Shown: piece by piece, positions 2,447 through 26,295 of the stretch
How positions within the stretch are numbered: the first letter of the stretch is position 1
How the letters are laid out: the number at the start of each line of letters is the position of its first letter
IMG/VR virus record: IMGVR_UViG_3300022602_000355
Coordinates: 1-26,655 of that record
Reading direction: 5' to 3' (one strand)
DNA from: a virus
Length of the DNA stretch: 26,655 nucleotides
Notes under the pieces: generated by a model
The model's input: the letters and a program-made list of their open reading frames with translations, nothing else
Database searches by the model: none
Told to the model about the DNA's origin: nothing
Position numbers and translations under genes: made by a program

Positions 2447-2711
2447 TATTCTTTGCCCGTTGATCTGCTCGATATTGTTTGTCAAACTTTTCTTCTTGCA
2501 CAGTCTTCTCTCCAAACACCTTACGACGATTACCACATATTACACAGCCAGGTTGGCCACAATCAGCTGCATGGTGCTTGATCAAGCGATGTGGTTGATC
2601 GATATATTTTGTATTGCCAATGGACTTGGCAATTTTTAATTGGCGTTTGATTACTGCCCAGGCACGTTGTAAACGTTTACCATGTTTGGCTTTGTCTTGT
2701 TCATTGCTCAT
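2430..2711 (-). CDS. Small basic protein with HH and CX4CX2C motif
   Basis: A 93-residue, strongly basic protein. Residues 41-64 hold a compact set of possible metal ligands: H46-H47, then C51, C56 and C59 in CGQPGCVICGNRRK. Short proteins with this CG-x-P-x-C-x-x-CGN-x-R-K signature are frequent in T4-like aquatic phages as I remember them, with no known function. The pattern could bind one zinc ion, which would suit nucleic-acid binding, but a full HNH nuclease core is not visible. The C-terminus is acidic and lysine-rich. The ATG at 2711 overlaps the stop of the glycosyltransferase-like gene by 11 nt, and its own stop overlaps the next gene's start, so it is expressed within the operon. 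Confidence 0.7.
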   Translation of the reverse strand: MSNEQDKAKHGKRLQRAWAVIKRQLKIAKSIGNTKYIDQPHRLIKHHAADCGQPGCVICGNRRKVFGEKTVQEEKFDKQYRADQRAKNNDADD

Positions 2712-4207: not shown

Positions 4208-4509
4208 CTATTTTTGTTTAGTTCTTCGTATTCAATTAACCAAGCATTCATTTGTTCTTGCCAGCGGCTGCGGACTATATCTCGGAATTCTCGAGAGTCT
4301 ATTTCCACCGGTGTATCGTATAAGTCAAGAATCACTGCTGTTGGTGCGGCGCAAGCGGCTAATGTAGCAAGTAATTCCGGACCAGCTATCCACATTCCAC
4401 CAGCATGTGCAAATGTCAATTTGGCTTGATATTTTTCTTTAAGAGTGCGTCGGGCGACCGCATGTTCAAAACGGCTACGACCGTGTGCAACAAGTTCGTC
4501 AGTATTCAT
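4204..4509 (-). CDS. Conserved hypothetical phage protein
   Basis: A 101-residue protein that opens the left operon. It begins with an amphipathic, charged helix (residues 1-30), has a short central hydrophobic region with MWIAGPELLATLAAC, a strand-like VILDLYDTPVEI segment, and ends in a long charged helix containing WQEQMNAWLIEYEELNK. That ending and the LDLYDTPVEI block match a small family I recall from T4-like aquatic phages; its function is not known to me. The stop overlaps the glycosyltransferase ATG as ATGA. A possible promoter places transcription start very close to the ATG, so the message may have almost no leader. No clear Shine-Dalgarno sequence is seen. Confidence 0.68.
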   Translation of the reverse strand: MNTDELVAHGRSRFEHAVARRTLKEKYQAKLTFAHAGGMWIAGPELLATLAACAAPTAVILDLYDTPVEIDSREFRDIVRSRWQEQMNAWLIEYEELNKNR

Positions 4510-4515
4510 ATATGT

Positions 4516-4544
4516 ATTGTACTACAAAAAGAGGATAAGGTAAA
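4516..4544 (-). promoter_or_regulatory. Possible sigma70-like promoter for the left operon
   Basis: On the minus strand TTTACC (4544-4539, 4 of 6 to TTGACA) and TACAAT (4521-4516, 5 of 6 to TATAAT) are separated by exactly 17 nt. Initiation would fall about at the ATG at 4509, giving a leaderless or nearly leaderless message. The -35 element overlaps the end of the terminator hairpin. A+T-rich sequence can give such matches by chance, hence modest confidence. Confidence 0.4.
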
Positions 4545-4562
4545 GCCCCTTGCGGGGCTTTT
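4542..4562 (-). terminator. Rho-independent terminator hairpin
   Basis: An inverted repeat AAAGCCCC / GGGGCTTT with a 4-nt loop separates the structural genes from the left operon. On the minus strand the stem is followed by CTTTACCTTAT, a short and interrupted U tract; the plus-strand reading has TTTT, so it could work in both directions. Its place just after the last structural gene supports a transcription boundary. Confidence 0.75.
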
Positions 4563-4581
4563 GGTAATACTAGTGTTACTA

Positions 4582-5595
4582 TTAGGCTACAGAAGCCGCA
4601 ATAGTTGGGGTTCCCCATGTATTGGACAAGCCTTGTGCGGTAGCAGGTGGCAGGTAAGTAACCAAAGTAGTCGGTGCTGTACCTGTAATTGTAGTGCTTG
4701 GACTAGCTGTAGCTGTACCACCCGAAATATTGCAGGTCGTGCCTGCGCCGCTTACCGCTGGTTGGAACCAAGTTGTTACTAAAGTTAATACTGTGCTTGA
4801 AGTAGCTGTAGCAGTAGTACGGATATACTCGCCGGTATATGGCGATGCAGTATTGTTTAACTGGAATATAGTAGTCGGGCTGGTTGTAAGGTTATACCAT
4901 CCTGTAGTAGTTGTTAATGTAGTTTGTGTGCCACCACCGCCACCAAGGCGTGTAGTACCCGTGTAGGCCTGGCTAGCAATAGTTTGACTTGCACCAGCAA
5001 CACGACCAGTAAGGTTAATTGATCCACATAGTCCAGCAAAAGTATTCCAGTCTGCATCCACATCGGTGCCTGTACTTGATTTACCGTATTGAAGTTTTAC
5101 AATACCACCAGCATTCCAGAAATACCTAGCTTGATCGGCACTTGGGAATGTAACAGTAGTTGTAAATGTAATAGTCCAAGTTGTTTGTCCAGAACCGGTG
5201 GCAGTAGTTTTACTTGTTGTGCCGGAGAATGTGCCATACGCTGTACCAGACGCAGCAGCATTGCCACGATTGGTTGTAACATTTGTTAGGTCAGTATTTA
5301 CTGCAGCTAGTGCTGTAATAGTTTGCCCAGTAGTCGGGGCAGTTCTTGCAGTTATTGTGGTGCTGGTTTGAGCGCCGGCTGTAGCAATATCGTTTACTAA
5401 ACTTGCCCATTGTGTGGCTGTAACCGTTCCAGCAGCCGATACAGTAGGGACTACAGTTTGTCCCCATCCTTTGTCGCCTGACCCGGTTGACCAAATATCA
5501 TTTAAGTTAGCACCCGCTGTACCGCCCGATGCTGTGGGGCCAACAAATCCATTATAATCTGTTGCTTGTATTAATCCGCCTGATGAATATGTCAT
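4582..5595 (-). CDS. Threonine-rich virion structural protein
   Basis: A 337-residue protein of extreme composition: about a quarter threonine (83 residues by my count), rich in Ala, Gly and Ser, with only four lysines and two cysteines. The start (MTYSSGGLIQATDYNGFV, then a GSGDKGWGQ motif and VTATQWASLVNDI) and the central ARYFWNAGGIVKLQYG motif match, from memory, a family of small virion proteins coded next to baseplate genes in aquatic T4-like phages. No enzymatic motif is seen; the alternating polar/hydrophobic pattern suggests beta structure and a fibre or surface role. AAGGAT precedes the ATG, and only 12 nt separate it from the fibre gene upstream, so the two are probably cotranscribed. 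It is the last gene before the terminator. Confidence 0.78.
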   Translation of the reverse strand: MTYSSGGLIQATDYNGFVGPTASGGTAGANLNDIWSTGSGDKGWGQTVVPTVSAAGTVTATQWASLVNDIATAGAQTSTTITARTAPTTGQTITALAAVNTDLTNVTTNRGNAAASGTAYGTFSGTTSKTTATGSGQTTWTITFTTTVTFPSADQARYFWNAGGIVKLQYGKSSTGTDVDADWNTFAGLCGSINLTGRVAGASQTIASQAYTGTTRLGGGGGTQTTLTTTTGWYNLTTSPTTIFQLNNTASPYTGEYIRTTATATSSTVLTLVTTWFQPAVSGAGTTCNISGGTATASPSTTITGTAPTTLVTYLPPATAQGLSNTWGTPTIAASVA

Positions 5596-5607: not shown

Positions 5608-6879
5608 TTAATTTATTGTAACAATAGCTTCAACGGTGCCTTCGCTACTATCTAATTTATCTTTGAGTGCGCGGCCAATTACATTAAATGCTGTCGCTTC
5701 ACCTACCTGGGCAGATCTAGCTAATCCGTTACCAGCCGAAACCAACCTATCACCTTTACGAACGTGACCGATAGTTCTAACAGGAACTCGTCCAGTCATT
5801 GCAACTGGGGGATGTGTTTCATTTGTTCCGGCATTACTATTCATCAAATATGCTGCTCTAGTACTTATGACGCCAAAAACATTCTCACTTAAATCTGTAT
5901 TAACTTGAGTAATTTCAGCTGATCCACCCAATTCGACCACTGTTCCAGGAACAAGCGCAACATCTGACTCAAAGCGTTCTGCTAAGTCGGCATAGTTAGC
6001 ATCAATTTGCAAACCAGTGATAACACCCGTAGATCCATTAATAGACATCGCTGTAACAACGCCACTGCCAGTATTCACAGTGAAATTAATATTGCCAGTG
6101 GAAGTTTGATTGGCGATAGTTGCAGTTGTGCCGGAAACACTCATACGGAGATCACTACTTGCGCCGACTGATAATCCTGTATTATTAAGAATGCCCAATG
6201 TTCCTGTTGTTGTTGAGTTAGTATCGTTACGCAAAAATTGTGTCGCCGCGATTCCACCAACTAGTTGTGCATTTGTGGCTGTACCTGTTAGCACTGCGCC
6301 ACCTGTGGTAGACAAGGTAATTCCTGGGTAGACCGCTGCAAATCCTGCAATCGGAGTGGCAGGGGTAAACATAGAGTCTTTACTAACCATACCGACAATT
6401 GTTCCACCGGAATATAGTTCGACTACATAGTGAGTTCCACCAATGTTGTCAAGGATTGCAGTAGAAACTGCACCGGTAGTACCACCAGGCGTGTTTGACC
6501 CAGGTCCAACCACTAACCAAGCGGCGCCAGTCCATACATTTAATTGTTGGGTTGATGTGTTATACCACAAGTCCCCAGTAACATTACCGGTTGGAGCAGA
6601 ACTTTGAGCAGTAGTAGAACTAATAGTTTTAAATGCACTACCGTTATAAACTTTAAGTAAACCATTACCAGAATCCCACCAAAGCTGACCAGTTAATGGT
6701 GCACCGGGTGGCGTAGTATTTGATGCATTTTCTAAAAGATGAATATAATTGGTATTTAGAAAATCACCATATCCTGCGTAATTCTGCCCTACTAGCGTCA
6801 TCGAGCTAGAAGTATTAATAGTACCATCCGCTACAACAGCAAATATGGTTCCATCGGTTAAGTTAATTGTATATGACAT
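5608..6879 (-). CDS. Tail fibre-like protein with ADLAE-type C-terminal domain
   Basis: A 423-residue virion protein. Residues about 58-118 hold two copies of a beta module, TGQLWWDSGNGLLKVYNG and TGDLWYNTSTQQLNVWTG, common in phage fibres. The middle (about 130-290) is Gly, Thr and Ser-rich, with NINFTVNTGSGVVTAMSING typical of fibre shafts. The C-terminus from YADLAERFESD to VEAIVTIN, with GVISTRAAYLMNS, HPPVAMTGRVPV and GHVRKGDRLVS, is a compact beta-rich domain widespread at the ends of phage and bacterial surface proteins. Some fibre C-termini are self-cleaving folding chaperones, but I see no clear catalytic signature here. GGAG lies upstream of the ATG, and a late-promoter-like element lies 48 nt before it. 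It could form a short fibre bound to the baseplate. Confidence 0.82.
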   Translation of the reverse strand: MSYTINLTDGTIFAVVADGTINTSSSMTLVGQNYAGYGDFLNTNYIHLLENASNTTPPGAPLTGQLWWDSGNGLLKVYNGSAFKTISSTTAQSSAPTGNVTGDLWYNTSTQQLNVWTGAAWLVVGPGSNTPGGTTGAVSTAILDNIGGTHYVVELYSGGTIVGMVSKDSMFTPATPIAGFAAVYPGITLSTTGGAVLTGTATNAQLVGGIAATQFLRNDTNSTTTGTLGILNNTGLSVGASSDLRMSVSGTTATIANQTSTGNINFTVNTGSGVVTAMSINGSTGVITGLQIDANYADLAERFESDVALVPGTVVELGGSAEITQVNTDLSENVFGVISTRAAYLMNSNAGTNETHPPVAMTGRVPVRTIGHVRKGDRLVSAGNGLARSAQVGEATAFNVIGRALKDKLDSSEGTVEAIVTIN

Positions 6880-8334: not shown

Positions 8335-11300
8335 TTATAGTCCCCGTAAAAACCTTGCAGCTATCGTTTCGGTTTCTTGTAGAGGATTACCGTCGCTAGG
8401 GGTACTAATGCCGGGTGCATACCAAGTTACTCCGCGTCGTATTAATATAGTAACATCGACACCATCTGGCGGTGCAGTATCAAATGTGATGCTCACTGGA
8501 CTATCAGCAGTAATAGTATATCCAGTTACTACTAGAATTCCACCAACATAAACCTCAATCGCATCATTTTCGGTAGTAGTAATATCTGTAGCGTCAAATA
8601 TAACAGTTGACCCATCGGCTAATATAGTAGCACTTACAATGTAATTTTGATAATCTGCTGGCAATAAATTACCGCGTCCCATGTTATAAACGGTTGCGCT
8701 GGATGCGTGTGGCGCCACTGCGGTGCCAGCTGTACCTCTTAACAGCCCACTAACGGTATTGGTACCAGTATCTCTATAGCGATACATAATTCTTTCTGCG
8801 TCAATAGTTAATACTCCCCAGATATTGTCATCCAATGCTGGGTCAACTAGCGCACCGGCGTTGGCAACATAAATGGTGTCATCTGTAATTAAAACTGGTT
8901 GAGTTGTTGTGGTTGTGGTATCAGTGGTAATGCGGTAAGTAGCCTGTACTCCACGCATATCCTGGAAAATTCTAAATGCCATAGCTTCTGGTACTACAAA
9001 GTTTGTAAATTGTGTTACCATAAGGACATCGGTTATTTTTAACAATCCAGATGTTAATATTAATTGTGTTCCACTTATTGTAAAGTTAATGCCATAAAAC
9101 AACTGACGGCCGTTTAATGACACCAACAACCGATTGGGATTAAGTATTGCGGTTCCAAGATCAATGTCATTGACAGTTACAATTACTCCCGCGGTGTAAT
9201 CGTAGCTTCCTGGATCATCAGTGACAGTACCGACATCAAAGTCTGTTGTGTCGTATGGTTCATTTGCAGTAATACCTTGTGTGACCGGGCCCACAAAACA
9301 CTGTGTTAAAATGGCCTGTTGGCGAGGATCATTCCAGGTAGTTACATCAATCACTGCACCAATACCTGGGACTAATCCTCCACTGGCGTTAAACACCAGT
9401 TGGTCATCATCAACATAGCATTGGGCATTTGTTAATACATAAATTAAAATTTGTTGACCAGCTGCTGGCGCGGTTGTGAATAATACTGTGCGTACACCAG
9501 CTGAATACGGAGTAACTATAAAATCTGTACTTAGGACTTGTGGAATATTGTTTACATATACATGCACCTGATTATCGGCAATCAACGATTCACTAAATCC
9601 AAGTCTTGCTGGCAACTGATATTCAACAGTACTATCATCACCTATCCAGTTAATGCCAGCTGCTGTTCTTGCACGGGCACCGTTTACAGTAACAACTATA
9701 CTATCAGGATTATTATAAACTAAACTATTATTAAGTGTAAAACTTAAAGCGCCATCACCGATAATAACCTGTGTTTGTGGGGCACTCCAGCTATAATTTA
9801 TTGTGGTGGAATTAACGGTTGTTGGGCCAATTGCAACCAAACTAATAAAATCCGTGCTAGTGTATGTTGACACAAAATTAATTTGAGTTTGATTACTATC
9901 CAAAATAGATTGGTAAGTGTAATCGGTATTCTCAACCAAGACCACACCATTAACAAAAATAGCAAATTCTTGTATTTCGCTATAGGTCACCGGAACAGTA
10001 ATAGTATCTACAACATCGGCGCCGTTATACACTTGTTTATAAAGTTGATTACCGCCACCTAATTCAAATACTGTAATTACTATAACATCGCCGGCGTTAG
10101 CATTGGCAATCACGGTAATTGTTTGGTTAGCCCAATCAACCGTATATCCATAATCAAGAGTGAGAGCTGTGCCTTGTGTTTGATTTGATACTGTTATCTG
10201 CACAGGATATGGCTGCACATTGGCAAAACTTACAGTAGGAGTAAGAGAATCAAATATAAATTTGTAAGTTGCCTCAGGGAACCCGTGACCACGCTGTAGC
10301 CAATCTGCGCCAGGGCGAGTATAAACTCGCATGTCTAAAGTATCAAATTCACTACCGGGTACTAATTCCTCTGGTGCATAGCTACTGAATACATCTATAT
10401 ATTTGCCACCGTCGACATTGATATCTGTGGCTCGTGTGCCTAGATACGGGTCAAGATATGCGCTAGAATATCTAACATCTAGAATAGCAGGGTCGTAGGT
10501 TGGGCGACCAACTGCGTCAAGTGCAAAATTATCAAATGGGTTGATGTCAAAATTACCAACATCAAATCCAGAATTTTGGCTGTACGTTGGCGCAGTTACT
10601 TGTACGCCGGGATATTCAACACCATCGATTAATAACGGTAAACTTAATCCTGGCATATTTGGCCCAGGAACATAATAGCCCATAGTTCGGTCAACACCAC
10701 TTAGTGTGCTGGCAACTACTCTGGTCCACTCGTCGGGTATAAACACCGGGCCAGATACTGTGCTGTTGGCTGCCCATACAATATTTGACCAACGAACTTG
10801 CGTTCCTTCAGTATATGTAACATTGGGTTCCCAATCAATAATGGTTGATGCGTATTGATAACGATCGTACTTAATTGTAGTTTTAATTGAGCGAACTAAC
10901 TCGTTGCCCATTTGCGCCACAGCAATTGCACCTGTACCGTTGCCACCGGTTAATGTTATTGTGGCGGTGGTACTATATCCACTACCTGGGGTAATAATAT
11001 TAACAGCCACAACTCGTCCTGCACTATTAATAACTGCGGTCATTTGGGCAGGAGCTACACAAGTTCCTGTAACAATAACCTCGGGCGGTATTGTATATCC
11101 AGAGCCACCGTTGGCAACAGTAACTCCTTGTATGCCTAACAGATAATTATTAAACCATTCACTCCACGGTTGCTCAAGCCAAACTTGAGCAGTAGCTGCT
11201 GCATCACTAACAGTAGATTCTACTAAACTACTCGACAATGTATAAGGAGTTAACACCGGACTTACAAATTGTGGAATTTCTAAAGTTGAATCCCAGTAGG

Positions 11301-14300
11301 CTGGAACATCATAGTCAGTTGGCAATCCGGGCCAAGTATCTATGCCATCATATATTAAGTTAAATGAAAGAGTTTGTACATGGTATGGTTTAACCTCTTG
11401 TAGGTAATCTAGCACAAAAGTTTGATTGTCTGGCTGGTAAAGTTGGAATGGCTCTAATCCACGAATCACATGATCAACTTCGATGTAACTAGTTTTCATT
11501 AACCAGTAAGGGCTATTGAATTCTGAATAGATAAATTTAAACATTAATATTAACGATTGGTTGCGTTCTATTAACAAATCGTCAATAAACAATTCTTCAT
11601 TAATAGCTCGAATAATTTGACGGGTTTCGATTGCTGGATATTGATCAAAATACTGTGCATCAAATACTTGAACATCGAAGCCAAATTTACCTACAGAATA
11701 ATTCCATAACTCTTCTTTAAATTCAATTGTACCATCTTCTAGGCCAACTCGTTGCCATCCAGTAACTGAACTTATACCAGTTCTAAGATAAATTTCATAC
11801 TTGCCTTGCCCGTTAGCAGTGACTTTTACACTACTTCCGATCGGTACTTGTGATATGCTCAGAGCTTGTAGTCCGGCAGTATTTGCCACAGTAACCAATG
11901 GTTGTACTGAACTATTATAACCTGGGAGATACCAATTAATATAATCCCAATACAGCGGAGTGTCATAGGTTTGTACTTGGACTAAATTTAAAACTCGTGT
12001 GCCTGGGACAAAGCCCTGCGCTACTACATAAATGGTCCAGCGACCGTTTTGACTGCTGTCTGATTCTACCAAATATAGATAGCCCAGTGGAACAATGGCA
12101 AGATTTTGATAGTACAATATTTCAAGATTCGGTACTGCATAATCCCAGGCACCCGAATTGGCTGCAGGAGTGGGCTCACTGCTGTTTAGTAAATTAAAAC
12201 TACGAGTTTCGCTAATAGGATATTGTGCCAATATTGTGTTGGCTCTGCCTAAATAATTTTGTAAAGCAGTAAATCTGTCAGCAAACATACTCTGGCGAGG
12301 ACGGAATTCTACACCATATTGCAGACCTGGGCTGAGCAATGGGTCCGGAACAAGGTTACCCACAGTATCTTGACCAGAGAAACTATCCAACAGTTTACGA
12401 TATAAATTTGCATTTAAGAATGAGTCGGGACGACCGTCGGCAATAAATGCATATTCGGTATGTGTATCTCCGGTACTGCCATCAGCTTGACGATTGTACT
12501 CGACGTGTAATATTGTGTCTCTAGCCGATAATAATCCCTTGGCATTGTATAAAGCAACGGTATTGGCGCTCAATGGAGCAATATATGGAAGCCCACTACT
12601 TAACGGATTTAATATATAACCGGCAATACCATTAGTACTTAAAGTTTTACCTGCGGTGGTGTTAATAGTAGCAAGACCAGTGACCCAGAAATAGTAATTA
12701 GTGACAAACACACCGGAGTTGTTCAACGATGATGTTACTGTGTAACTAATTGTACTAAATGGTGTTCCTGGGCCGGTATAGCTGGCCGGTGGTACAGAAC
12801 TTTCTATCCATTGATAAATGTCAATGCTACTACCAGGGAAGGTCTGTGCCCAGCGGCGGCTGGCATAGGTAATGTCATCTTGGCTAGGTTCAATAAATCT
12901 AACGGTATAGGTACTCCACCAAATTTCTCCTACGTGGGCTGCCCCCCAGCTGGTACCAATGTTGTGTATACTACCGGCATTATAGTTTGCTGGATCTACT
13001 GCGCCTATGTAGTCTATGTTTCTACGGGCCACGCCAAGGATCTTGCCTTGTAATGGATCAATAAAATCAAAATAAGTTTGTGTGCTGTTTAATAGTTTAT
13101 CAAACGAGTAAACAGAATTAATTAATTCAATATCGACTGCTGGTTGCTGAGTGTGTATTATTGTCCAAGATGGTACATCGTTGGAGTTGTCAAACACAGT
13201 AACATCATAATCTATATCATAATCTTCATCGGCTTCCTGACCAGGAGATCCAATAACTAACCGATTATTGCGGTAGTTTACAGCAACACCAAATAGATCA
13301 TTAGTTTCTAAATTATTATTATATATCTGCTGACCAAATACAAACTGTCCAGGATTTGACAACGAATTAGACGAGCTAGGTAGGTAATCAAATGTGTAGG
13401 CTACTCCGCTGTTGTCAACTTGATTAAAGAAAGTTGTGCTATGTTCATCAAAATAAGTTTGGCCAGCATCAAAGGTAGTTGGCTCGTATACATTGCCATT
13501 GGGTGCTCCTACTACTAAACTCGAAGCATTGGTATTAATACTTAATGCAGTACCAAATTGAGCATATGGTGTAGGATTAGGACTGACAATAGTCTGCGTG
13601 TAGGCATAGGTTGTAAATCCAATATCTGCAAATGCTGTGCCAGAGACTCCCGGTAGTACTGTGAGTTTGTTAAATGTAGCTGCAGCAGTAGCATTAATAA
13701 CACTAACAGTCATTCTACCGGATATAACTTTAATAATGCTACCCATTGCCGGAGCCGTTACAAATGATATTTGTTGTGTGGCATTGGTATAGGTATAGGT
13801 GTATCCACCAGTAGGATTGGCTATTTGTAATACATCATCAAGATATACTATAGAAGTATACGCACCTGCGGCTGAGTAAATATTGCCAATGTCAAATATT
13901 TTAGTTGAGCCATCGCCATACAGGGTTACATCTGGGGTTGCTGTTGCAACAACATTTGGTATTCCGGAAGTGTTAATTGCTGTAATCAACGACTGTATAG
14001 TAGTATCGGGTACTGTAACCAACGAGTCATTAATACGAATAGTATCGCCTGGGGTTAATATTGGATTAGCCACGGTTGACGTAATTACCCCGTATATTCT
14101 AGATTGATTTACTTGACGTTGTGCCAATCCAGCTTGTGGAATTAATCCGCCTTCTAATGGTGCGCCAATGTACACACTACAATTATTAGGGCAGATATCT
14201 ACCGCTTGACCAAATGCCGATTCATCAAATACTGTTTTTTCAACAATCTTTTGAATCTGTTGGAACTGATTAGTTTCAATTTCTAACATATCGCCCACAG

Positions 14301-17300
14301 TTAGTACTACCGAGCTTGATAGTATAATGTCAGCCCCACTAACAGTAAATTGTCCATTGATATATTGAGCGGTGTTGGTTAAGAATTGATTATTAAGTAT
14401 TACTGCTATAGGATCGGTGTATGCTCCGGGGATAGCATAGGTAGTTTGTGTAGCATCAGTAATAATGTATCTGACCACGCTACGATCAAATGCATATACT
14501 GATCCGCCGTGGCTGACAGTGTTGCCATTGCTGTCTGTGGCAGTATCGCGAACAGCACCAATTAAAATCTGGCGGCCATCGGTACCACAAGTTATACTGG
14601 TACCAAATTTAGCCCCAGCATCGATACCAGGAACAGTAATACTATTAATATACTGCCAGTAAGTTCCTGCAGTAATAGCAATGGTGGCACCAACTGTTGG
14701 CGTAGTTACAAAGGTAATGTCCACACCACTAAATGTATAATCGATATATGGTCTTTGTATAATACCATTAACACGAACAGTAAACGAATCAATATTAGTA
14801 GCGGTGTACAAATATTGTTCTAGTGAGAAAGTTGGAACGCTATAAGATAATTGAACAGCAACGGTACGAGCAATTACCACTGTTTGTCCGGCAGCCGGTG
14901 CTACAAATAACTGGACAAGATTTGTGTTTATAACATAATCAACGCCATATGTTAATATAGTTCCATCGACTGTAACCGTTAGTTGATCTGGAAAAGTTGA
15001 GTTGATTGTAATATTATCAACATAGGTAAATGTTGCAGTTACCCCGTTGCCAACATAACTTATTGTTTCTACCGGAATTTCAACCTTACCATAGGCATAT
15101 ACTAAATTGCCGCCAGGAGCACCAATATACATCCATTGTTCGTCATCGCTAATAACTGTAGACGATCCAAAATTGTATGCATCGTTATAGTAATCGGGTG
15201 CCACTAATAGTTGTACTTCTATAAAATCATTTGTTGCTGGCGGTTGATATAGCATGACTGCATAACCTGCGCCTGCGTTACTAGCACTGGCACCGACTAC
15301 CGCCCATGCTTGTTTACCAAAGTCTACAGCATTACCGAATCCAAGAACATCGGTAGCAGCAAGTGTTAGTTCATTATTGTTAATATACGTCTGGGTAGTA
15401 TTGTCTCGTCTATAAGTGTATAATGAGCCCACTCCAGAATTGTTGCCGGGTGCGCCAACTAATAAAGAATAATGATTAGTGGCTTGGGCTAAACTATACC
15501 CGTATAATGAATCTGCATCGAGTGTAGTAGCCGACAGGGCGCTTATCTCAGTAAATACTTTTTGTTTTTGTATTACTTCCCAATGGCCAGATCCGTTGTT
15601 ATCTACCCAGGCTGTGGCACCGGGAACTAAATCATTGGCATACGGTAAGTTGACTACATCACTGGCCTGCGATACACGCATGGTCTGTAAATGGAATACA
15701 ATGCCAGTTCCAGTTATTGACGTTTTATTCAAATTAGTAAAAGCAAATTCAATCACCGCAGAATTTATACTAGGCAGTGATAGTACACGATAAACGCCAT
15801 CTACTGATGAATCAAAGTAACGAATAATTATTAAATCACCAACTGATAGTCCTGTGGTTAATCCAGAAAATTGCGCTATGCTTGTGCCGTTGAGATTATC
15901 AGTTAGTTGGTTCAGTCGTCCTGGTACTTGTACACACTGATAGATATTCCAACTATAACTATTATCTTGTGCTACCCAGATGCTTGTACCGTTACCGATT
16001 GTGCTTAATTTGGCAGCAATTGTGCTTGGATCATTAAGATTGAATACAGTGATATCTACATCGTTAAGATTTACATAACCAGCCGACGGAAGTGCTGTGT
16101 CTAAATTCCTTGTGTAGGTTGTTGGCAATATATCTGTGTTTGGAATTTTATAACTTTCACTCCAGAGGTCACTTAACAATATAGCCTGATTGGCACCCGA
16201 GGTTTCGCCTGGAACAACAATTTGAACTGTGCTAGGATTTCCAGTTAACAATGCCGCATTTAAATTCACTTCAAACCAACTACGGTTGGCGTTGGCACCG
16301 TATGTTCCAACTAAGATTCCCCAGTCTTCATAGATATTATATTGACCAGTTTCTTTGTTAAAATTAACCTGTGTAAACAAATCGGCCGCTTGTAAACTAC
16401 CTTTAGTTTTAATAAATTGCTGATACAAATTAACTTGACTTACGCTGTCTAAATTTAAATCAACCATGTACTGACGAGGACGGAATCCAATTAATCCAAA
16501 TGCCAATAAATCGTTGGCGCCATTAAGGTTAGCCGTTTGTACATTGTAACTGTTGGCCAGTTGATCAGCCTTGTTGGCTAAATTCTGTAATAGTCCTTGT
16601 TGAATTCGATCGTAATTACTCTTATACCAATCAGCATATTCAAACTTTTCTTTGGGCTGTACAATAGTAGAGGCTTGCCAATAACTATTTTTATAGATAA
16701 CAATGTCACCTTTGGTGTATTTGGTGTTAGGTGACCATGCTATGACATTATTTTGATTTAAAATAAATCCTTGAGCATTTAATGTGCCGTCCCACTGCGT
16801 CGATGTAGCGGCCTTCATCATCAACCGATTTTGTCTTTCAGCTGTAATAGGATCATACATTAAATCATTGAAAATAGTTGTGTTATCAAACACAATCATA
16901 TCTTCATAATCGGTAAATTTTAATTGTAGGAAACTGATAGTTTGACTTCCACCAGGTGCTGGACGTACTGTAAATGCATCACCTTCGCGTTGAATGACTA
17001 AATTTTTGGACTTAAATTGTTGGCGGTTTTGATCTAACAACATATTTTCAGGAGTATAGATTACAATACTATCAACAATAGATCCAGGTCTAAGGGCAGA
17101 TACTTCCGTGGCCGCTGGATTTAAATTAATAATGGTTCCTGGAGCCCAACCTTGGTTGGCAAAATATAAAAACTCCTGGGCCATTTGTTGCCAATTAAGA
17201 ACATAGCCATTTTCTATCTGAGTAAAGGACATTCCTTGACTGGCAAGATATGCACCATAACTTAATATAAAATCAACAGTGCTGGTGAGATTACTAAATG

Positions 17301-20300
17301 TATAACCATATGGAATCTGTACAATGCTATCAGAATACTGACTTGGTACTGTAACGGAAATGTTTCCGCCAGTTAGTGTCTGCGTATTGCCGTTAATCTT
17401 GCTGGACAAAATTGGAAAATATGGTTGATAACTGCTATAGCCATAAATGGTGTACCCGTCCTCACCAACTTCTACAATTAACGAACTATAAACTATTTCA
17501 TCAAATGGTTGATTTTTATATAATACTAAATTATAACTTTCTGGTGGTATTAGTAATGTAGAATTATTACTATTTGGATTAGATTTTTCTAAGTAGACAT
17601 TTAAATTTTGTTGGGCTACAAAGGATGCGGCACGATAACATAATCGCACATCAAGAGTTGACAGGTCGGTAGTCAATGCATCTGTACTGTTTAATCCCAG
17701 TTGCTGATTATAATCAACAATCCAATCGATATAACTTGCCTTGCTAACACCATTGCCGTAGACTTGAATACTTGCTGGATCTATTCTATAACGACCGTTG
17801 TATAGGTACTGATCAAATTCTGTACTGTAACGATACAAATCGCGATCGGCAAATAAACTAAAGAATTCTGCAGGACGAGTCAATGCTAATAAACGCATAA
17901 CTGCAAACGGATAGCTACTACTCATCCACCAGCTAGCTTCTACTGGCCCGCCATCACCAACGACCCAACTCTTAACAAATCCATTAGGGTTGAATTTCCC
18001 TGCTACACTTTGTAGTGGCGGTATTAGATTGCCTTGACTGTCTACTGGAATAACCGATGTTAACCCAGGACGAGCATAATTAGGTTTGATATAGGGAGCC
18101 GCAGGGTCGGCAACTAATCCCAATTCTAGATCGCCCCAGAGTACTAAGTTGTCGCTGGTATACGGCCCGGGGCCATATCGGGTTTCCCACCATACAGGCA
18201 TTTCGCTAAAGCCCAACATTTCCCATGGTGTGATGTTTGGAGTTAGGGTATCATAGAAGTAACGATAAATTCCGCGCCATGCTCCTAGTAACGGAGCACC
18301 GTCAAGTTTGTTACCAGCTTGACTATAATTGTAAGTGTATTCGTTGTTGGCAATAAAAGTTTGTGCTGTATAATCTAATTTGTTATATCCGACCCAGCTA
18401 AGGAAAGTTTCACCTAGTATTTGATTAATTTCTGTTTGTGTATAATCTGTAGTTCTAAAATATCCAGGGATAACATCCTCGGCAGTAAGTGGAGGAGGGT
18501 TACCATCATTTTTAAGATTGCTAAAGATTCTAGTTTCAAATTCCAACAATACTTGATCTCGTATGTCACCAAACGCCACAGTGATCGATCCGTCGTGACC
18601 TTGAATCACCGGAGTAGGATTTACATAATCATCATCTAGGAAAATTTCTGGTCGGTACTTAGGATACAAGCCTAATTTAGTCGGAGTGTTGGGTACAAAA
18701 TTTCCAGCGGTATCAGTGTATTCATTGACAGTAACCACATCGCCAACTGACAATGGCACCGTAATAGTTAACACAGGACTATCAACAGATACTACATAAT
18801 CATACTCGCGTGTTAACAATACATTATTAAGATATACTAATAATCCTTGATAGTTTGATTCTGTAAAACTATAAGTCTGTGTGGTATTAAATCTTGAGGT
18901 GGTAATTGCTGTAACCGTTGTGCTGGTTGATGTAAACACTGGACCGGTGGGCAACATGTCACTCCAGTAAAACGGACTCATGTTGGTATCGCCCAAATTA
19001 ATTTGAGCTATGGCCGCATCTAATAATTGAGCAACTGTCCAGTTACCATAATCGGCAATACCAAAAGTAGTTACAGCCTGTAACAGTAATGATTTAAATT
19101 TAATGTATTCACGACTGTTATAATCCAGGGCGCCAAATATATCGTAATTAGCATCGCGCATAAAGTAGCCAGTTAGTGTCAGCGGCGAACTTTGTTGTAG
19201 AATTTGTAAACCATAAGGAACAATGTTGCCAAGGTCGCGAGTATTATTAGCACCAATTACAGGTCCCGACAACGGAATAAGATTTTCAGCAATGGTACTA
19301 TAATGATTGCGTATTGTACCTAGGGTAAATTGTTTACTATTTCCATTGAACGGATTGTTTTCCAAATTAATTGGAACTTCATAAAATGCAGCGGCACTAG
19401 TTTGATCACTGAGTACCAAGACTTCAATTACGTCGCCTGGCACATAAGCAGTCAACAAATTAATTGTAGTTGTGTTTGTTCCGACAACCACCGTATAATT
19501 GTATGATTCTTGGAAAGTAGAATTAACAAATATTTGCACCGCAGGAACAGTTGTATTTGCATTAACCGCAACATCAAGTAACAGCGGACTACCATCATAG
19601 GTAAATTGGAACTGCTGTCTAATTAGACTTGGGGTAACGGCTGTTTGCCAGCCAATCTCTCTGACAAAATTAATACGGTCGCTATATTGTCTAACAAATC
19701 CAGAGCTCAATGGTACAATTTGGCCGGTTTGATTAATGGTATAATTAAAAGAATCAGCGTAAAGATTATTATCAAAAACAATGTCGCCGATGTTAGTCAA
19801 ACTCAAATAGGTTATTGGAAATCCCAGAACTAAGTCTGGTGCAACATCACCAATGGCATAACTGAACAGTGGACTTCCTCTAAAGGTGGTACTAGGATAA
19901 GTTACCGGATCCCCAAAACTTATTCCGTTTGAATCGTATATGTCAAACAGTGGTGGTTGGTTAACCTGTGTCTTTTGTTGAGTCTTAACCCAGGTCACGC
20001 CGTCCCAACGATAGCTAATGCCTTGCTGAGTATTACCATCTAAGATTACCACATTCTGATCAATTAATGCTGGGCTATCAGCAGTCGGAGTTAATATAAT
20101 GATTGGTTCAGCAATCAATGGCGGAACAGTATCGGGAGTAATAAATTGCACCTGATAAATTGTTCGTCTTACAATAGGATCTAAGTCTGCAGCAAAAATA
20201 ATTGTAGATCCGTTAATGAGAGTGTATCCGTCTGTACTATATCCAGTGCCACCATTAATTGTGCTTAATGCGTCTAGTTGTGTAAAATCAATAATGTTAA

Positions 20301-22434
20301 CTGGTTGTTTACCGTTGGTGCCAAAATCAAACAACCGAGTGCCGGCGCGGAATTCTAAAATTGGTCTTGCTGCACGGAAATTGTTATCAAGAACTGGTGT
20401 TGTATTGTTATAAGCAGCCGACGCATTAATAACATCAATATGGAACCAGCGATTACTCCTTGACCACGGGTCAAGATCGGGTGCCGCACGATTTATAGTA
20501 AGATAGTCTGGAACTATAGGTTGATTTAATGACGCATCAAAATTACCAAAATCATATGGTGTGCTATCGTAAGGAACACTGGTACTTTCTGTATAAGTTT
20601 CTGGGGTGACAAAATTAATCACAGGCAATAATCGAATAGCAGTACCTACCCCTTCAACATAGTATTCGTTATTTTGATAGCTATCAGGAATTACATTACC
20701 ACGAAATACAACTTTCATTCCGTTACTAAATGTTACTCCATTAGGACTAGTATAGGTGGAGGAGCCAATAATTGTTGCAATATCGATAGATGACGACAAC
20801 GATTCATCAATAATATTAATTTGTCCAAATAAATTAGGATCTGTGCCGTCTTGGTAGAACAATACATTTTTAGTTGCAGTTAATAATGGAATTTGTTCAA
20901 ATAATCCAGACGAATTTTTATACCAACCAGTACTGGCATACTCAGAGCCAAATAAAATAGAAAATTTATTTAGATTACTAATTTGTTCAATACTGTTTAA
21001 CGAAATATATTGATTGCCGTTTGTGTCGGTTAGATATTGTATTTGCCAAACACTAAATTGTATGGCAGGATCGGTAATCAGAGTATTTTGATCAAAAGTA
21101 GTAGAATCAAATGACCCCACTCCACTAACTACGTTGCCAGCATTAGATAATGGATCAAAGAATGTAGTTTGTTGCCATCCGCCCGACTCCGGATCCGTAT
21201 TGTCATTTATAAAAACAACAGTGCGATTATTTAAATTCGTAATGCCATCAATTCCGTTGGGATTAGCTTCAAAAAATGGGCCTAAAAACTGATTGTTTAT
21301 TTGATCAAAATTTAAGGTGGTAACTAAATCAACTGTGCCAATACTTGGCAAGTTGTAATAAAAATCTTGTGCGGTCGCAAGTGGAACATTAAAAGTAACT
21401 GTGCCGAGGTCCTCGCCATTATTAACAACACCTAAAACATCTCTACTGCTAATGTTTGGAGTCGCTGGAATACGCCCATTAACACCAGGGTCTGTTTGAA
21501 TCCAAAATCCTGGGCCAGTGCCGGGCGTCCCGTCGACAATGTTAAACTGGCCACGGAAATTATATTGGGTGTCATTACAATAATACAATGTGTCGGGTGC
21601 ATCTTGTGGCACTGTGAATGTAATTAAATTAGATGAGGCACCATTGTTGAATACTCCACTACTCCATATATTTGTTGTACCAAGACTTAATTCAGTTTTA
21701 ATCCAAAATGCTAGTGGAACAGTTTGTGTAAGATTAAATGTATAGGTATTCCCTCGCACCAATGTGAGTGTGGGGTTAGACTCAAAATCAATTGCCCAGC
21801 TAGTTGCATTATTAGTGACGCGATATTCTATTGAGGCTTGACTATTTTGTGCAACATTAAAATTATAATTGCCGCCGCGAACCAGGGTAATTGCTGGATT
21901 ATTACCAGAGTAACCAGAAAAAGTATAGTAGCCGTTGTTTCTAGTTACGGTAAAATTATCAGTTAGTGGAAAGCCTTCTGAGGATATATCTACTGCTAGT
22001 GGGCCGCGTGGCAGCCAGTAATATTGTGCATAGTTTACAAATTTATCAAAGTCAACAAACGGATCCCAAGTATAGTAATCACTGGTGTATAATGCCTGAG
22101 GATTAGTTGTCACGGCGCCTTGTACATTTAATGCATCGGTGATACCAGGATAGGTAATTGCATCAACAATTTTATGAGAGTCAGTAGGATCAATTTGTAC
22201 AACGCCCGGTTCTAATTGATAATTGTTGCGAACCGCAGTTGGCTCAATAACATACTTGTCATTGGCGTTGACGCCAGGTCCAATCTTTTGTCCAATATAC
22301 CCTTGTGTTTGTTTGAACCGTGGCTCTTGAACTAGTTGATCAAGGGTTGCAGCCAGAAACTGTTTGTTAACTGGGGTTTGAAATATTTCTGGTAAAAAAT
22401 CTACAGTACGAATTTGTGTACTTGAAGTTGCCAT
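8335..22434 (-). CDS. Giant baseplate/tail structural protein, 4699 residues, in gp7 position
   Basis: One uninterrupted frame of 14.1 kb directly after gene 6, the place of T4 gene 7 (1032 residues). The start TAATG shares one base with the gene 6 stop and has GGAG 7 nt upstream (22445-22442). Approximate layout: residues 1-150, conserved N-terminus (FLPEIFQTPVNKQFLAATLDQL region) likely for baseplate docking; 178-300, two cupredoxin-like domains; 1255-1440, conserved blocks FLDDDYVNPTPVIQGHDGS and WEMLGFSEMPVWWE; 1440-2300, conserved core; 2309-3098, seven FG-GAP-like blades; 3098-3760, second conserved core; 3762-3845, two GSGY repeats; 3915-4053, EYPGV and ELVPGSEFDTLDMRVY blocks; fibre-like modules near 938, 1166 and 4055-4667. 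No transmembrane segment or protease motif was seen. It probably forms much of the baseplate rim and may replace several separate T4 wedge and fibre-socket proteins. Confidence 0.85.
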   Translation of the reverse strand: MATSSTQIRTVDFLPEIFQTPVNKQFLAATLDQLVQEPRFKQTQGYIGQKIGPGVNANDKYVIEPTAVRNNYQLEPGVVQIDPTDSHKIVDAITYPGITDALNVQGAVTTNPQALYTSDYYTWDPFVDFDKFVNYAQYYWLPRGPLAVDISSEGFPLTDNFTVTRNNGYYTFSGYSGNNPAITLVRGGNYNFNVAQNSQASIEYRVTNNATSWAIDFESNPTLTLVRGNTYTFNLTQTVPLAFWIKTELSLGTTNIWSSGVFNNGASSNLITFTVPQDAPDTLYYCNDTQYNFRGQFNIVDGTPGTGPGFWIQTDPGVNGRIPATPNISSRDVLGVVNNGEDLGTVTFNVPLATAQDFYYNLPSIGTVDLVTTLNFDQINNQFLGPFFEANPNGIDGITNLNNRTVVFINDNTDPESGGWQQTTFFDPLSNAGNVVSGVGSFDSTTFDQNTLITDPAIQFSVWQIQYLTDTNGNQYISLNSIEQISNLNKFSILFGSEYASTGWYKNSSGLFEQIPLLTATKNVLFYQDGTDPNLFGQINIIDESLSSSIDIATIIGSSTYTSPNGVTFSNGMKVVFRGNVIPDSYQNNEYYVEGVGTAIRLLPVINFVTPETYTESTSVPYDSTPYDFGNFDASLNQPIVPDYLTINRAAPDLDPWSRSNRWFHIDVINASAAYNNTTPVLDNNFRAARPILEFRAGTRLFDFGTNGKQPVNIIDFTQLDALSTINGGTGYSTDGYTLINGSTIIFAADLDPIVRRTIYQVQFITPDTVPPLIAEPIIILTPTADSPALIDQNVVILDGNTQQGISYRWDGVTWVKTQQKTQVNQPPLFDIYDSNGISFGDPVTYPSTTFRGSPLFSYAIGDVAPDLVLGFPITYLSLTNIGDIVFDNNLYADSFNYTINQTGQIVPLSSGFVRQYSDRINFVREIGWQTAVTPSLIRQQFQFTYDGSPLLLDVAVNANTTVPAVQIFVNSTFQESYNYTVVVGTNTTTINLLTAYVPGDVIEVLVLSDQTSAAAFYEVPINLENNPFNGNSKQFTLGTIRNHYSTIAENLIPLSGPVIGANNTRDLGNIVPYGLQILQQSSPLTLTGYFMRDANYDIFGALDYNSREYIKFKSLLLQAVTTFGIADYGNWTVAQLLDAAIAQINLGDTNMSPFYWSDMLPTGPVFTSTSTTVTAITTSRFNTTQTYSFTESNYQGLLVYLNNVLLTREYDYVVSVDSPVLTITVPLSVGDVVTVNEYTDTAGNFVPNTPTKLGLYPKYRPEIFLDDDYVNPTPVIQGHDGSITVAFGDIRDQVLLEFETRIFSNLKNDGNPPPLTAEDVIPGYFRTTDYTQTEINQILGETFLSWVGYNKLDYTAQTFIANNEYTYNYSQAGNKLDGAPLLGAWRGIYRYFYDTLTPNITPWEMLGFSEMPVWWETRYGPGPYTSDNLVLWGDLELGLVADPAAPYIKPNYARPGLTSVIPVDSQGNLIPPLQSVAGKFNPNGFVKSWVVGDGGPVEASWWMSSSYPFAVMRLLALTRPAEFFSLFADRDLYRYSTEFDQYLYNGRYRIDPASIQVYGNGVSKASYIDWIVDYNQQLGLNSTDALTTDLSTLDVRLCYRAASFVAQQNLNVYLEKSNPNSNNSTLLIPPESYNLVLYKNQPFDEIVYSSLIVEVGEDGYTIYGYSSYQPYFPILSSKINGNTQTLTGGNISVTVPSQYSDSIVQIPYGYTFSNLTSTVDFILSYGAYLASQGMSFTQIENGYVLNWQQMAQEFLYFANQGWAPGTIINLNPAATEVSALRPGSIVDSIVIYTPENMLLDQNRQQFKSKNLVIQREGDAFTVRPAPGGSQTISFLQLKFTDYEDMIVFDNTTIFNDLMYDPITAERQNRLMMKAATSTQWDGTLNAQGFILNQNNVIAWSPNTKYTKGDIVIYKNSYWQASTIVQPKEKFEYADWYKSNYDRIQQGLLQNLANKADQLANSYNVQTANLNGANDLLAFGLIGFRPRQYMVDLNLDSVSQVNLYQQFIKTKGSLQAADLFTQVNFNKETGQYNIYEDWGILVGTYGANANRSWFEVNLNAALLTGNPSTVQIVVPGETSGANQAILLSDLWSESYKIPNTDILPTTYTRNLDTALPSAGYVNLNDVDITVFNLNDPSTIAAKLSTIGNGTSIWVAQDNSYSWNIYQCVQVPGRLNQLTDNLNGTSIAQFSGLTTGLSVGDLIIIRYFDSSVDGVYRVLSLPSINSAVIEFAFTNLNKTSITGTGIVFHLQTMRVSQASDVVNLPYANDLVPGATAWVDNNGSGHWEVIQKQKVFTEISALSATTLDADSLYGYSLAQATNHYSLLVGAPGNNSGVGSLYTYRRDNTTQTYINNNELTLAATDVLGFGNAVDFGKQAWAVVGASASNAGAGYAVMLYQPPATNDFIEVQLLVAPDYYNDAYNFGSSTVISDDEQWMYIGAPGGNLVYAYGKVEIPVETISYVGNGVTATFTYVDNITINSTFPDQLTVTVDGTILTYGVDYVINTNLVQLFVAPAAGQTVVIARTVAVQLSYSVPTFSLEQYLYTATNIDSFTVRVNGIIQRPYIDYTFSGVDITFVTTPTVGATIAITAGTYWQYINSITVPGIDAGAKFGTSITCGTDGRQILIGAVRDTATDSNGNTVSHGGSVYAFDRSVVRYIITDATQTTYAIPGAYTDPIAVILNNQFLTNTAQYINGQFTVSGADIILSSSVVLTVGDMLEIETNQFQQIQKIVEKTVFDESAFGQAVDICPNNCSVYIGAPLEGGLIPQAGLAQRQVNQSRIYGVITSTVANPILTPGDTIRINDSLVTVPDTTIQSLITAINTSGIPNVVATATPDVTLYGDGSTKIFDIGNIYSAAGAYTSIVYLDDVLQIANPTGGYTYTYTNATQQISFVTAPAMGSIIKVISGRMTVSVINATAAATFNKLTVLPGVSGTAFADIGFTTYAYTQTIVSPNPTPYAQFGTALSINTNASSLVVGAPNGNVYEPTTFDAGQTYFDEHSTTFFNQVDNSGVAYTFDYLPSSSNSLSNPGQFVFGQQIYNNNLETNDLFGVAVNYRNNRLVIGSPGQEADEDYDIDYDVTVFDNSNDVPSWTIIHTQQPAVDIELINSVYSFDKLLNSTQTYFDFIDPLQGKILGVARRNIDYIGAVDPANYNAGSIHNIGTSWGAAHVGEIWWSTYTVRFIEPSQDDITYASRRWAQTFPGSSIDIYQWIESSVPPASYTGPGTPFSTISYTVTSSLNNSGVFVTNYYFWVTGLATINTTAGKTLSTNGIAGYILNPLSSGLPYIAPLSANTVALYNAKGLLSARDTILHVEYNRQADGSTGDTHTEYAFIADGRPDSFLNANLYRKLLDSFSGQDTVGNLVPDPLLSPGLQYGVEFRPRQSMFADRFTALQNYLGRANTILAQYPISETRSFNLLNSSEPTPAANSGAWDYAVPNLEILYYQNLAIVPLGYLYLVESDSSQNGRWTIYVVAQGFVPGTRVLNLVQVQTYDTPLYWDYINWYLPGYNSSVQPLVTVANTAGLQALSISQVPIGSSVKVTANGQGKYEIYLRTGISSVTGWQRVGLEDGTIEFKEELWNYSVGKFGFDVQVFDAQYFDQYPAIETRQIIRAINEELFIDDLLIERNQSLILMFKFIYSEFNSPYWLMKTSYIEVDHVIRGLEPFQLYQPDNQTFVLDYLQEVKPYHVQTLSFNLIYDGIDTWPGLPTDYDVPAYWDSTLEIPQFVSPVLTPYTLSSSLVESTVSDAAATAQVWLEQPWSEWFNNYLLGIQGVTVANGGSGYTIPPEVIVTGTCVAPAQMTAVINSAGRVVAVNIITPGSGYSTTATITLTGGNGTGAIAVAQMGNELVRSIKTTIKYDRYQYASTIIDWEPNVTYTEGTQVRWSNIVWAANSTVSGPVFIPDEWTRVVASTLSGVDRTMGYYVPGPNMPGLSLPLLIDGVEYPGVQVTAPTYSQNSGFDVGNFDINPFDNFALDAVGRPTYDPAILDVRYSSAYLDPYLGTRATDINVDGGKYIDVFSSYAPEELVPGSEFDTLDMRVYTRPGADWLQRGHGFPEATYKFIFDSLTPTVSFANVQPYPVQITVSNQTQGTALTLDYGYTVDWANQTITVIANANAGDVIVITVFELGGGNQLYKQVYNGADVVDTITVPVTYSEIQEFAIFVNGVVLVENTDYTYQSILDSNQTQINFVSTYTSTDFISLVAIGPTTVNSTTINYSWSAPQTQVIIGDGALSFTLNNSLVYNNPDSIVVTVNGARARTAAGINWIGDDSTVEYQLPARLGFSESLIADNQVHVYVNNIPQVLSTDFIVTPYSAGVRTVLFTTAPAAGQQILIYVLTNAQCYVDDDQLVFNASGGLVPGIGAVIDVTTWNDPRQQAILTQCFVGPVTQGITANEPYDTTDFDVGTVTDDPGSYDYTAGVIVTVNDIDLGTAILNPNRLLVSLNGRQLFYGINFTISGTQLILTSGLLKITDVLMVTQFTNFVVPEAMAFRIFQDMRGVQATYRITTDTTTTTTQPVLITDDTIYVANAGALVDPALDDNIWGVLTIDAERIMYRYRDTGTNTVSGLLRGTAGTAVAPHASSATVYNMGRGNLLPADYQNYIVSATILADGSTVIFDATDITTTENDAIEVYVGGILVVTGYTITADSPVSITFDTAPPDGVDVTILIRRGVTWYAPGISTPSDGNPLQETETIAARFLRGL
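8435..10270 (-). repeat. C-terminal array of fibre-like beta modules in the giant protein
   Basis: Residues about 4055-4667 contain at least six copies of a module of roughly 70 residues. Each has a strand, an xVxVNGxx turn, an xDYTx strand and an ending like FxTAPAxGxxIxI. Examples are SIVVTVNGARA, HVYVNNIPQVLSTDF with LFTTAPAAGQQILIYV, LLVSLNGRQLFYGINF, and EVYVGGILVVTGYTI with ITFDTAPPDGVDVTI. The pattern resembles repeats near the N-terminus of T7-like tail fibre proteins. Five more copies lie at residues about 938-1010, 1166-1240, 2455-2594 (two), 2651-2721 and 2835-2908; the last four are counted with the propeller. Confidence 0.7.
13140..15510 (-). other. Seven FG-GAP-like blades forming a probable beta-propeller, with inserted fibre modules
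   Basis: Residues about 2309-3098 of the giant protein. Motif pairs in order: YGYSLA/LLVGAPGN (2309-2343), FGNAVD/AVVGASAS (2363-2398), FGSSTV/MYIGAPGG (2416-2451), FGTSIT/ILIGAVRD (2604-2650), FGQAVD/VYIGAPLE (2735-2783), FGTALS/LVVGAPNG (2954-3016), FGVAVN/LVIGSPGQ (3042-3098). The FG-x8-14-hhVGAP pattern is the hallmark of FG-GAP repeats, and seven is the number that closes the integrin-alpha propeller. Blade 7 carries an acidic loop, ADEDYDIDYD, that could bind calcium. Fibre-like modules separate blades 3-4, 4-5 and 5-6. Confidence 0.68.
21530..21900 (-). other. Two cupredoxin-like domains in the giant protein, metal ligands lost
   Basis: Residues about 178-300. The first copy is short (NPAITLVRGGNYNFNV). 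The second is complete: NPTLTLVRGNTYTFNL, PLAFWIKT, ITFTVPQDAPDTLYYCN, and GQFNIVDG. This matches a plastocyanin-like repeat seen in many large phage structural proteins. In versions I recall, a histidine precedes FWIKT and a C-x-x-H-x-x-M motif follows YY; here the first is alanine and the second keeps only the cysteine, so copper binding is unlikely. Confidence 0.6.
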
Positions 22435-25920: not shown

Positions 25921-26295
25921 TTAAACGTAGGTAGCTGTGCGCTGTTGTTGATTAAAAAAGATGCTTAACATTTGAGCATTAGTACTAGGCACTACAGCAA
26001 TACCTACTTGTACAAGCAGGCCGTTTTCTTGGGGGAACATTTGTATGCCGCTGATAAAAATCCTAGGATCCCCGGCACAAACTCGTTGTATTTCAGCGTA
26101 GATTAATTGTTGTGTTTCTTGTGTTTGATTCTCAAACAGATAATTCCAAAGTACTGTACCGTACCCAGGGCGGCCAACTAGCTCGCCTTGGCGTATGTTA
26201 AACGCATTAAGTAGGTCAATTTTAATCAAATTAAAGTCTACAGCGGTAAACTTTTTGTTTTGATTGATTGTGTTAAATCCAATAAATGTAGGCAT
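25921..26295 (-). CDS. 25: Baseplate wedge protein gp25-like (GPW/gp25 family)
   Basis: A 124-residue protein, close to the 132 residues of T4 gp25. It has the family hallmark at residues 38-56, GELVGRPGYGTVLWNYLFE, followed by a helix (TQETQQLIYAEIQRVCAGDPR) and the closing beta segments ISGIQMFPQENGLLVQVGIAVV. In T4 gp25 forms part of the inner wedge and joins the gp6 ring to the sheath; R42-P43-G44 and E55 fall in the conserved core patch. The ATG at 26295 lies 21 nt after the upstream gene's stop. The ribosome-binding site is weak, with only GAG further upstream, so it may depend on coupling to the previous gene. Confidence 0.93.
   Translation of the reverse strand: MPTFIGFNTINQNKKFTAVDFNLIKIDLLNAFNIRQGELVGRPGYGTVLWNYLFENQTQETQQLIYAEIQRVCAGDPRIFISGIQMFPQENGLLVQVGIAVVPSTNAQMLSIFFNQQQRTATYV

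Follow-up and report, generated by a model that had tools for sequence, protein, structure and literature searches.

The virus record IMGVR_UViG_3300022602_000355 (26,655 bases; the window) has as its largest open reading frame (ORF) the gene for a giant virion structural protein, within which lies a seven-bladed FG-GAP_2 propeller bearing fibre-type modules in its loops (Table 1). Comparison with propeller-less relatives places the propeller in a single hairpin turn between two conserved cores of a phage protein. The sections below describe the propeller, its modules and its insertion before considering what it may do at the phage baseplate.

The giant protein and its baseplate context

The giant ORF matched the PHROG family phrog_10938 ('virion structural protein') with an expect value (E) of 1.3e-284, and it belongs to that family by its shared cores and by its position after the gp6-like wedge gene. 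Homologues are present in the jumbo phages 121Q, Phosso and Atu_ph07, in which the order gp25-like, gp6-like, giant is identical, and the PHROG 'baseplate wedge tail fiber protein connector' profile matched residues 96-301 of the giant (window 21532-22149; E=3.1e-10). A further homologue, PA5oct gp355, is annotated as a virion protein by mass spectrometry, and CBB_236, the product of the gene that neighbours the gp6-like gene in phage CBB, was detected in virions by the same means (PMC5259590). The gene order and these mass-spectrometry notes on homologues support the giant as a baseplate protein, as a first-pass annotation made from the sequence alone had claimed. The gene has the same position as that of T4 gp7, but profiles of three core parts gave no match to PDB sequences, and neither these nor profiles of the propeller found a convincing relative there.

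Table 1. Features of the propeller insert, the giant ORF and the adjoining wedge genes (residues are those of the giant protein)
Feature	Residues	Window position	Strand	Basis or remark
Propeller insert	~2291-3088	13171..15564	minus	AlphaFold2 model, FG-GAP_2; edges from empty-site relatives
Core hairpin strand before insert, HWEVIQK	2284-2290	15565..15585	minus	Aligned to W(T/A)VY of propeller-less relatives
Core hairpin strand after insert, SWTIIHTQQ	3089-3097	13144..13170	minus	Aligned to W..YRQQ of propeller-less relatives
First propeller strand	2292-2301	15532..15561	minus	Model strand 32-37; VIA alignments begin here with integrin alpha residue 1; probable closing strand
Blade 1	2302-2356	15367..15531	minus	Blade HMM 28.7 bits; model strands
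Blade 2	2357-2410	15205..15366	minus	Blade HMM 21.2 bits; model strands
Blade 3, two modules in strand 3-4 loop	2411-2599	14638..15204	minus	Blade HMM 25.9 bits
Module M3a, fibre-type beta module	2457-2529	14848..15066	minus	Self-similarity HMMs; weak PF03906 match
Module M3b	2535-2591	14662..14832	minus	Matches M3a, M5b and C-terminal modules
Blade 4, one module	2600-2730	14245..14637	minus	Blade HMM 36.4 bits
Module M4	2654-2723	14266..14475	minus	Weaker member of same module family
Blade 5, subdomain M5a and nested module	2731-2949	13588..14244	minus	Blade HMM 39.6 bits
Subdomain M5a, first half	2777-2834	13933..14106	minus	Joined to second half where M5b is missing, as in L008
Module M5b, nested in M5a	2835-2907	13714..13932	minus	PF03906 E=0.0049
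Subdomain M5a, second half	2908-2942	13609..13713	minus	Same basis as first half
Blade 6	2950-3037	13324..13587	minus	Blade HMM 40.2 bits
Blade 6 strand 2-3 loop hairpin	2978-3009	13408..13503	minus	Conserved above propeller average; face opposite modules
Blade 7, strands 1-3	3038-3082	13189..13323	minus	Blade HMM 32.1 bits
Core A	1245-1700	17335..18702	minus	Conserved in all relatives; basis of propeller-blind search and tree
Core B	~3100-3360	12355..13137	minus	Restarts right after propeller; BLASTP to Phosso, Atu_ph07, 121Q
Giant virion structural protein, 4,699 amino acids		8335..22434	minus	Single open ORF; carries propeller
gp6-like baseplate wedge protein, 1,146 amino acids		22434..25874	minus	phrog_10646 E=2.2e-276; tblastn to 62 jumbo phage records
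gp25-like baseplate wedge protein		25921..26295	minus	PF04965 E=4.4e-6, slightly below cut-off; PHROG baseplate wedge families

A seven-bladed FG-GAP_2 propeller

Seven FG...GA(P/S/V) units lie in order between residues 2311 and 3064 of the giant, starting at residues 2311, 2366, 2422, 2610, 2741, 2960 and 3048 (window 15404 down to 13291), with no further copy elsewhere in the protein. From FG to GAP, blade 2 has a spacing of 15 residues where blades 1 and 3-6 have 16, and these values are invariant across 65 non-redundant relatives. A hidden Markov model (HMM) of the blade gave seven matches to the giant protein at 21-40 bits, the next best scoring -0.4 bits, and its best score on 50 shuffled proteins was 2.4 bits; the motif positions and these scores bear out the earlier count of exactly seven units with no extra copy. 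When both the tested blade and the window were excluded from the model, blades 1, 3, 4 and 6 were still recovered (E from 6e-4 to 7.5e-10), while blades 2, 5 and 7 reached only marginal scores, though correctly placed. Pfam family PF14312 (FG-GAP_2) matched the propeller segment at 45 bits (cut-off 23; E=1.2e-11), which assigns it to that family, and matched a relative with a bare propeller, L268, at 91 bits (E=3.8e-26). PF01839, the FG-GAP family named in the first-pass annotation, gave no match to the window segment, so that the expected FG-GAP kinship stands through PF14312 and not through the family proposed. The DxDxDGxxD calcium motif was absent from every blade across 75 relatives, eight rows of the alignment matching it only in the core flank before blade 1. 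We note that the strand 1-2 loop of blade 5 contains a CPNNC motif (residues 2748-2752, window 14179-14193), both cysteines of which are present in 70 of the 75 relatives.

An AlphaFold2 model of residues 2264-3116, built from 75 sequences, had a mean predicted local distance difference test score (pLDDT) of 91.4 and a predicted template modelling score (pTM) of 0.91, and superseded an earlier run with eight sequences (pLDDT 64). The model contains seven blades, each four-stranded. Integrin alpha chains were the leading Foldseek matches in PDB (E 4e-9), and the model could be aligned across all blades to both integrin propellers and WDR5: VIA-align gave a Z-score of 29.1 over 356 residues at 2.6 A for integrin alpha-M, and covered 297 of 303 residues at 2.4 A for WDR5. 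The best match among predicted viral structures was an uncharacterised phage protein, A0A6J5L8L4. Foldseek TM-scores of the propeller model were low; the probable cause is the large share of the query that the inserted modules take up. Model residues 26-37 align onto the closing strand of WD40 and integrin propellers, and the ring is probably closed by this N-terminal strand acting as strand 4 of blade 7. By its sequence the element belongs with the FG-GAP_2 propellers and by its fold with the seven-bladed ones, the predicted structure being closest to the integrin alpha and WD40 propellers, and the integrin-like propeller postulated from the motifs is recovered by structure prediction.

Single FG and GAP motifs are short and degenerate, and a chance run of them, or a mis-assembly, might be imagined in a low-complexity, beta-rich protein. 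We give this explanation virtually no credence, as it is refuted by the low scores of the shuffled proteins, the Pfam match above cut-off, the high-confidence fold and the presence of the propeller in more than 400 independent IMG/VR contigs; L001 is 99% identical to the window across the segment.

Fibre-type modules in the propeller loops

Blade 3 holds two modules and blades 4 and 5 hold one each, always within the loop that joins strands 3 and 4; the first-pass annotation had correctly recognized one or two fibre-type modules at each of these blades, related to others in the protein, but had placed them between the blades and not inside them. Model strands 381-394 and 453-467 of blade 4 extend directly into M4, and M5b is nested in M5a, a subdomain unrelated to the modules. 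In propellers all strand 3-4 loops share one face, so the modules are predicted to leave one face over three adjacent blades. A display from one side by blades 3-5, as was suggested previously, is thus supported by the strand order of the model together with standard propeller topology.

Module HMMs matched each other and also stretches near residues 1173-1238 and 4150-4667 of the giant. For both M3a and M5b the top-scoring family was PF03906, the T7 tail fibre N-terminal domain, at scores below its cut-off (16-17 against 25.2 bits); among relatives of M3a, 6 of 38 matched this family, with a best E of 1.6e-4. M5a is reminiscent of a flagellin-hook IN motif, but Pfam gave no support for this and the subdomain is left unassigned.

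The modules vary between relatives in the manner of cassettes. In 62 full-length close relatives the M5b position is occupied by either 65-76 or 3-10 residues, the short form (17 of the 62) representing absence of the module, and the gap between M3a and M3b measures 7-10 or 91-94 residues (57 in one case), the long form containing an extra module, M3x. At least four changes of M5b and at least eight of M3x are required on the tree of relatives, and the window is without M3x although its nearest relatives carry it. A side lineage (L238, L268 and L276) has the propeller without fibre modules, as judged by module HMMs run on L268 and L238 and by seven blades counted by eye in L268; a bare propeller is therefore viable.

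The propeller is an insertion in one hairpin turn

BLASTP alignments of the giant to 121Q, Phosso and Atu_ph07 extend to residue ~2168 and resume from 3067-3110, leaving the propeller unaligned, and no blades or FG-GAP domains were found in these three giants. In compact propeller-less relatives the equivalents of the strands HWEVIQK and SWTIIHTQQ are linked by a short turn, an arrangement also present in PA5oct, and from this empty-site alignment it follows that the propeller occupies one beta-hairpin turn. IMG/VR was searched with core A alone, so that relatives were not chosen by their propeller, and this returned 128 giants with both cores, 107 of them with blades and 21 without; the sampling of IMG/VR is uneven, and the three to six blades found in distant relatives are HMM detections that do not prove a smaller number. 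The distance between core A and core B is mostly 591-900 amino acids without the propeller as against 1,091-2,090 with it, the longer distance in the propeller-less Phosso and Atu_ph07 types being due to other repeats. The propeller site in Phosso (L009 ~1710-3190) and Atu_ph07 (L012 ~1660-3160) holds ~1,500 amino acids that include many GxGY-type glycine-rich repeats, and repeats of this type are also present at residues ~3767-3850 of the window giant and before the blades in L246.

In a tree built from 84 sequences of core A, the presence of the propeller changes once, with a support of 99. Since there are several propeller-less groups, placed around the root used for drawing, one gain is the more economical reading, but that root is not proved. 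Pairwise identity is 0.42-0.56 in the propeller block compared with mostly 0.56-0.76 in the flanking cores. The propeller could be a structural spacer or decoration, a rigid disc that widens or braces a large baseplate without a specific ligand, and its retention in sampled descendants after one acquisition would suit such a role. The nozzle protein gp12 of T7 sets a precedent, as it puts to structural use, for the channel, a seven-bladed propeller in which a blade-3 loop leads to another domain (PMC6702177), and the conserved hairpin of blade 6 suggests a fixed protein contact. However, the surrounding cores are unchanged by the presence or absence of the propeller, which is less conserved than they are, and the modules have been repeatedly exchanged, so that we regard a purely structural role as improbable.

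No match was obtained when the window propeller was compared by tblastn with 50,697 phage records. None of the cultured phage records searched carries the propeller in its giant protein, and queries from relatives match only another giant gene of Phosso. This gene of Sinorhizobium phage Phosso (gene 108, L282:3790-13701) encodes a second giant protein, annotated as 3,692 amino acids and covered over 3,304, with 19 FG-GAP_2 stretches (E=2.6e-173), and is probably several propellers in one chain. A 4,909-amino-acid relative of the giant with weak blade matches was found on L283 and L284 (335 and 153 kb), in a metagenome-assembled genome labelled Candidatus Neomarinimicrobiota; these are probably phage contigs binned with a bacterium. 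Neomarinimicrobiota was considered as a host, but two binned contigs alone were too weak a basis and the assignment was not used.

Other features of the window

Elsewhere in the giant, PTLTLVRGxTYxF motifs are repeated near the N-terminus within residues 96-301, and a CBM_5_12 match below threshold lies at residues 1899-1920 (window 16675-16740). The repeats at residues ~3767-3850 (GGSGYT...GSGYS; window 10885-11136) match the head closure family phrog_460, probably through the repeat alone. Downstream of the tail genes, ORFs at window 1183-4207 resemble glycosyltransferases by eye and stand beside SGNH-like (521-1189) and radical-SAM-like (3-524) ORFs; the ORFs tested in this region had no NCBIfam match. 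A 423-amino-acid ORF at window 5608-6879 has tail-fibre-like PHROG matches and a match below threshold to the Peptidase_G2 autoproteolytic domain (E=0.0015), and possibly encodes a self-cleaving fibre protein.

Discussion

We propose that the propeller is a host-surface adhesion platform at the periphery of the baseplate, which we consider its most likely function, with a probability of roughly 0.5. Both ends of the propeller would meet at blade 7 and may tether the disc there to the baseplate wedge protein; the module-bearing blades 3-5 would then point away from the tether, a geometry that rests on the strand order of the model and on known topology. Such a platform could bind host-surface polymers through the propeller face and the modules and so strengthen attachment; if each wedge has a copy, which is what one expects of a wedge protein of the gp6/gp7 type, reversible adhesion before contraction would arise as the sum of many weak contacts. 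An exposed position is supported by the lower conservation of the propeller block relative to most of the flanking core. Precedents that support adhesion come from two other baseplates: the seven-bladed propeller of PhiKZ gp131 lies peripherally on a jumbo-phage baseplate, and receptor binding has been suggested for it (cited in PMC4901313), and the propeller of the phi11 receptor-binding protein has a cavity for N-acetylglucosamine (PMC4901313).

Several points weigh against an adhesive role. The evidence for a virion location comes from homologues of the propeller-bearing form. The modules resemble, below threshold, the N-terminal domain of the T7 fibre, which holds the fibre to the tail and not to the host, so that docking fits too. 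Nor are the modules hypervariable when compared with the blades at any divergence, M3a being moderately faster, and these identities weaken a model in which the modules are hypervariable receptor-binding tips that set host range, leaving docking or general adhesion as readings that fit. As the next most likely reading, ranked behind adhesion and ahead of a spacer, the propeller and its modules may be a docking hub that binds long tail fibres, spikes or a neighbouring wedge and so organises a branched adsorption apparatus without contacting the host. The recurrence of the module family in the giant, its weak match to an attachment domain, evolution at roughly the speed of the blades, and the gain and loss of cassettes as if tracking partner proteins would all suit a hub, and among related phages RaK2 has an adsorption complex in which several proteins form a branched assembly (PMC10253068). 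However, the PF03906 matches are below the curated cut-off.

The propeller shares with that of integrin alpha chains its fold, its seven blades, the placement of FG and GAP, a probable N-terminal closing strand and the hosting of an inserted domain. It differs in that its blades are without DxDxDGxxD calcium loops, its inserts lie in strand 3-4 loops and not at the I-domain position, and there are no thigh, calf or membrane parts, the flanks being phage virion cores of phrog_10938; identity was at most 19% in the alignments listed. With no calcium motif in its blades and with virion cores on either side, the protein is not an integrin. As with the C-terminal propeller of PhiKZ gp131 (4GBF), with which it was compared by description only, it has seven blades and belongs to the baseplate of a jumbo myophage, but the PhiKZ propeller is the C-terminal domain of another protein and fibre modules in its loops are not described in PMC4901313; gp131 was absent among the fold matches listed, which is uninformative about its relation. 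The phi11 receptor-binding protein is another propeller-bearing baseplate protein, presumed to bind a host sugar, but its propeller has five blades, the protein is a trimer with stem and tower, and FG-GAP repeats have not been reported for it. T7 gp12 also has seven blades, in a tail protein, and a blade-3 loop to an inserted domain (PMC6702177), but it belongs to the channel of a podovirus, where its part is structural and lies in gating. An integrin-like fold has been reported for the 'hemagglutinin' gp213 of AP-J-162, a phage related to Atu_ph07 (PMC11242549); this protein and its Atu_ph07 counterpart (375-394 amino acids; A0A2L0UZX4) come from a related jumbo phage lineage, but are encoded by a separate small gene outside the giant, and fibre modules are not described for them. 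Kelch propellers have been reported in phage CBB (PMC5259590). The giants of 121Q (gp582), PA5oct (gp355) and Phosso share homologous cores (phrog_10938) and gene order with the window but are without the propeller, the site being empty or filled with other repeats. Our literature search found no FG-GAP in phage baseplates within the library consulted. Propellers in phage tail proteins were already known; what is new here is a propeller inside a giant wedge-associated protein, the proof from empty sites, a presence that changes only once on the tree, and loops at fixed positions that hold modules as cassettes.

Perhaps the propeller is a standard mounting disc, acquired once, whose strand 3-4 loops serve as cassette slots for tail-fibre-type modules that are exchanged without disturbing the baseplate protein; we put this forward tentatively, as plausible but short of likely. 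Among the virion proteins of jumbo phages are many of very large size whose function is unknown, and relatives with and without the propeller show how one of these grew: a single hairpin turn received a complete integrin-type propeller, which later acquired exchangeable modules. The propeller-bearing clade is a concrete target, because it is abundant (more than 400 contigs, freshwater phages) yet without an isolate in the phage collection searched, and relatives in culture that have no propeller, PA5oct among them, serve as natural controls and allow a clean test of what a phage propeller is for. If the mounting-disc proposal is true, it would represent a modular route by which a contractile-tail phage can reshape the surface it adheres with while its tail fibres evolve separately.

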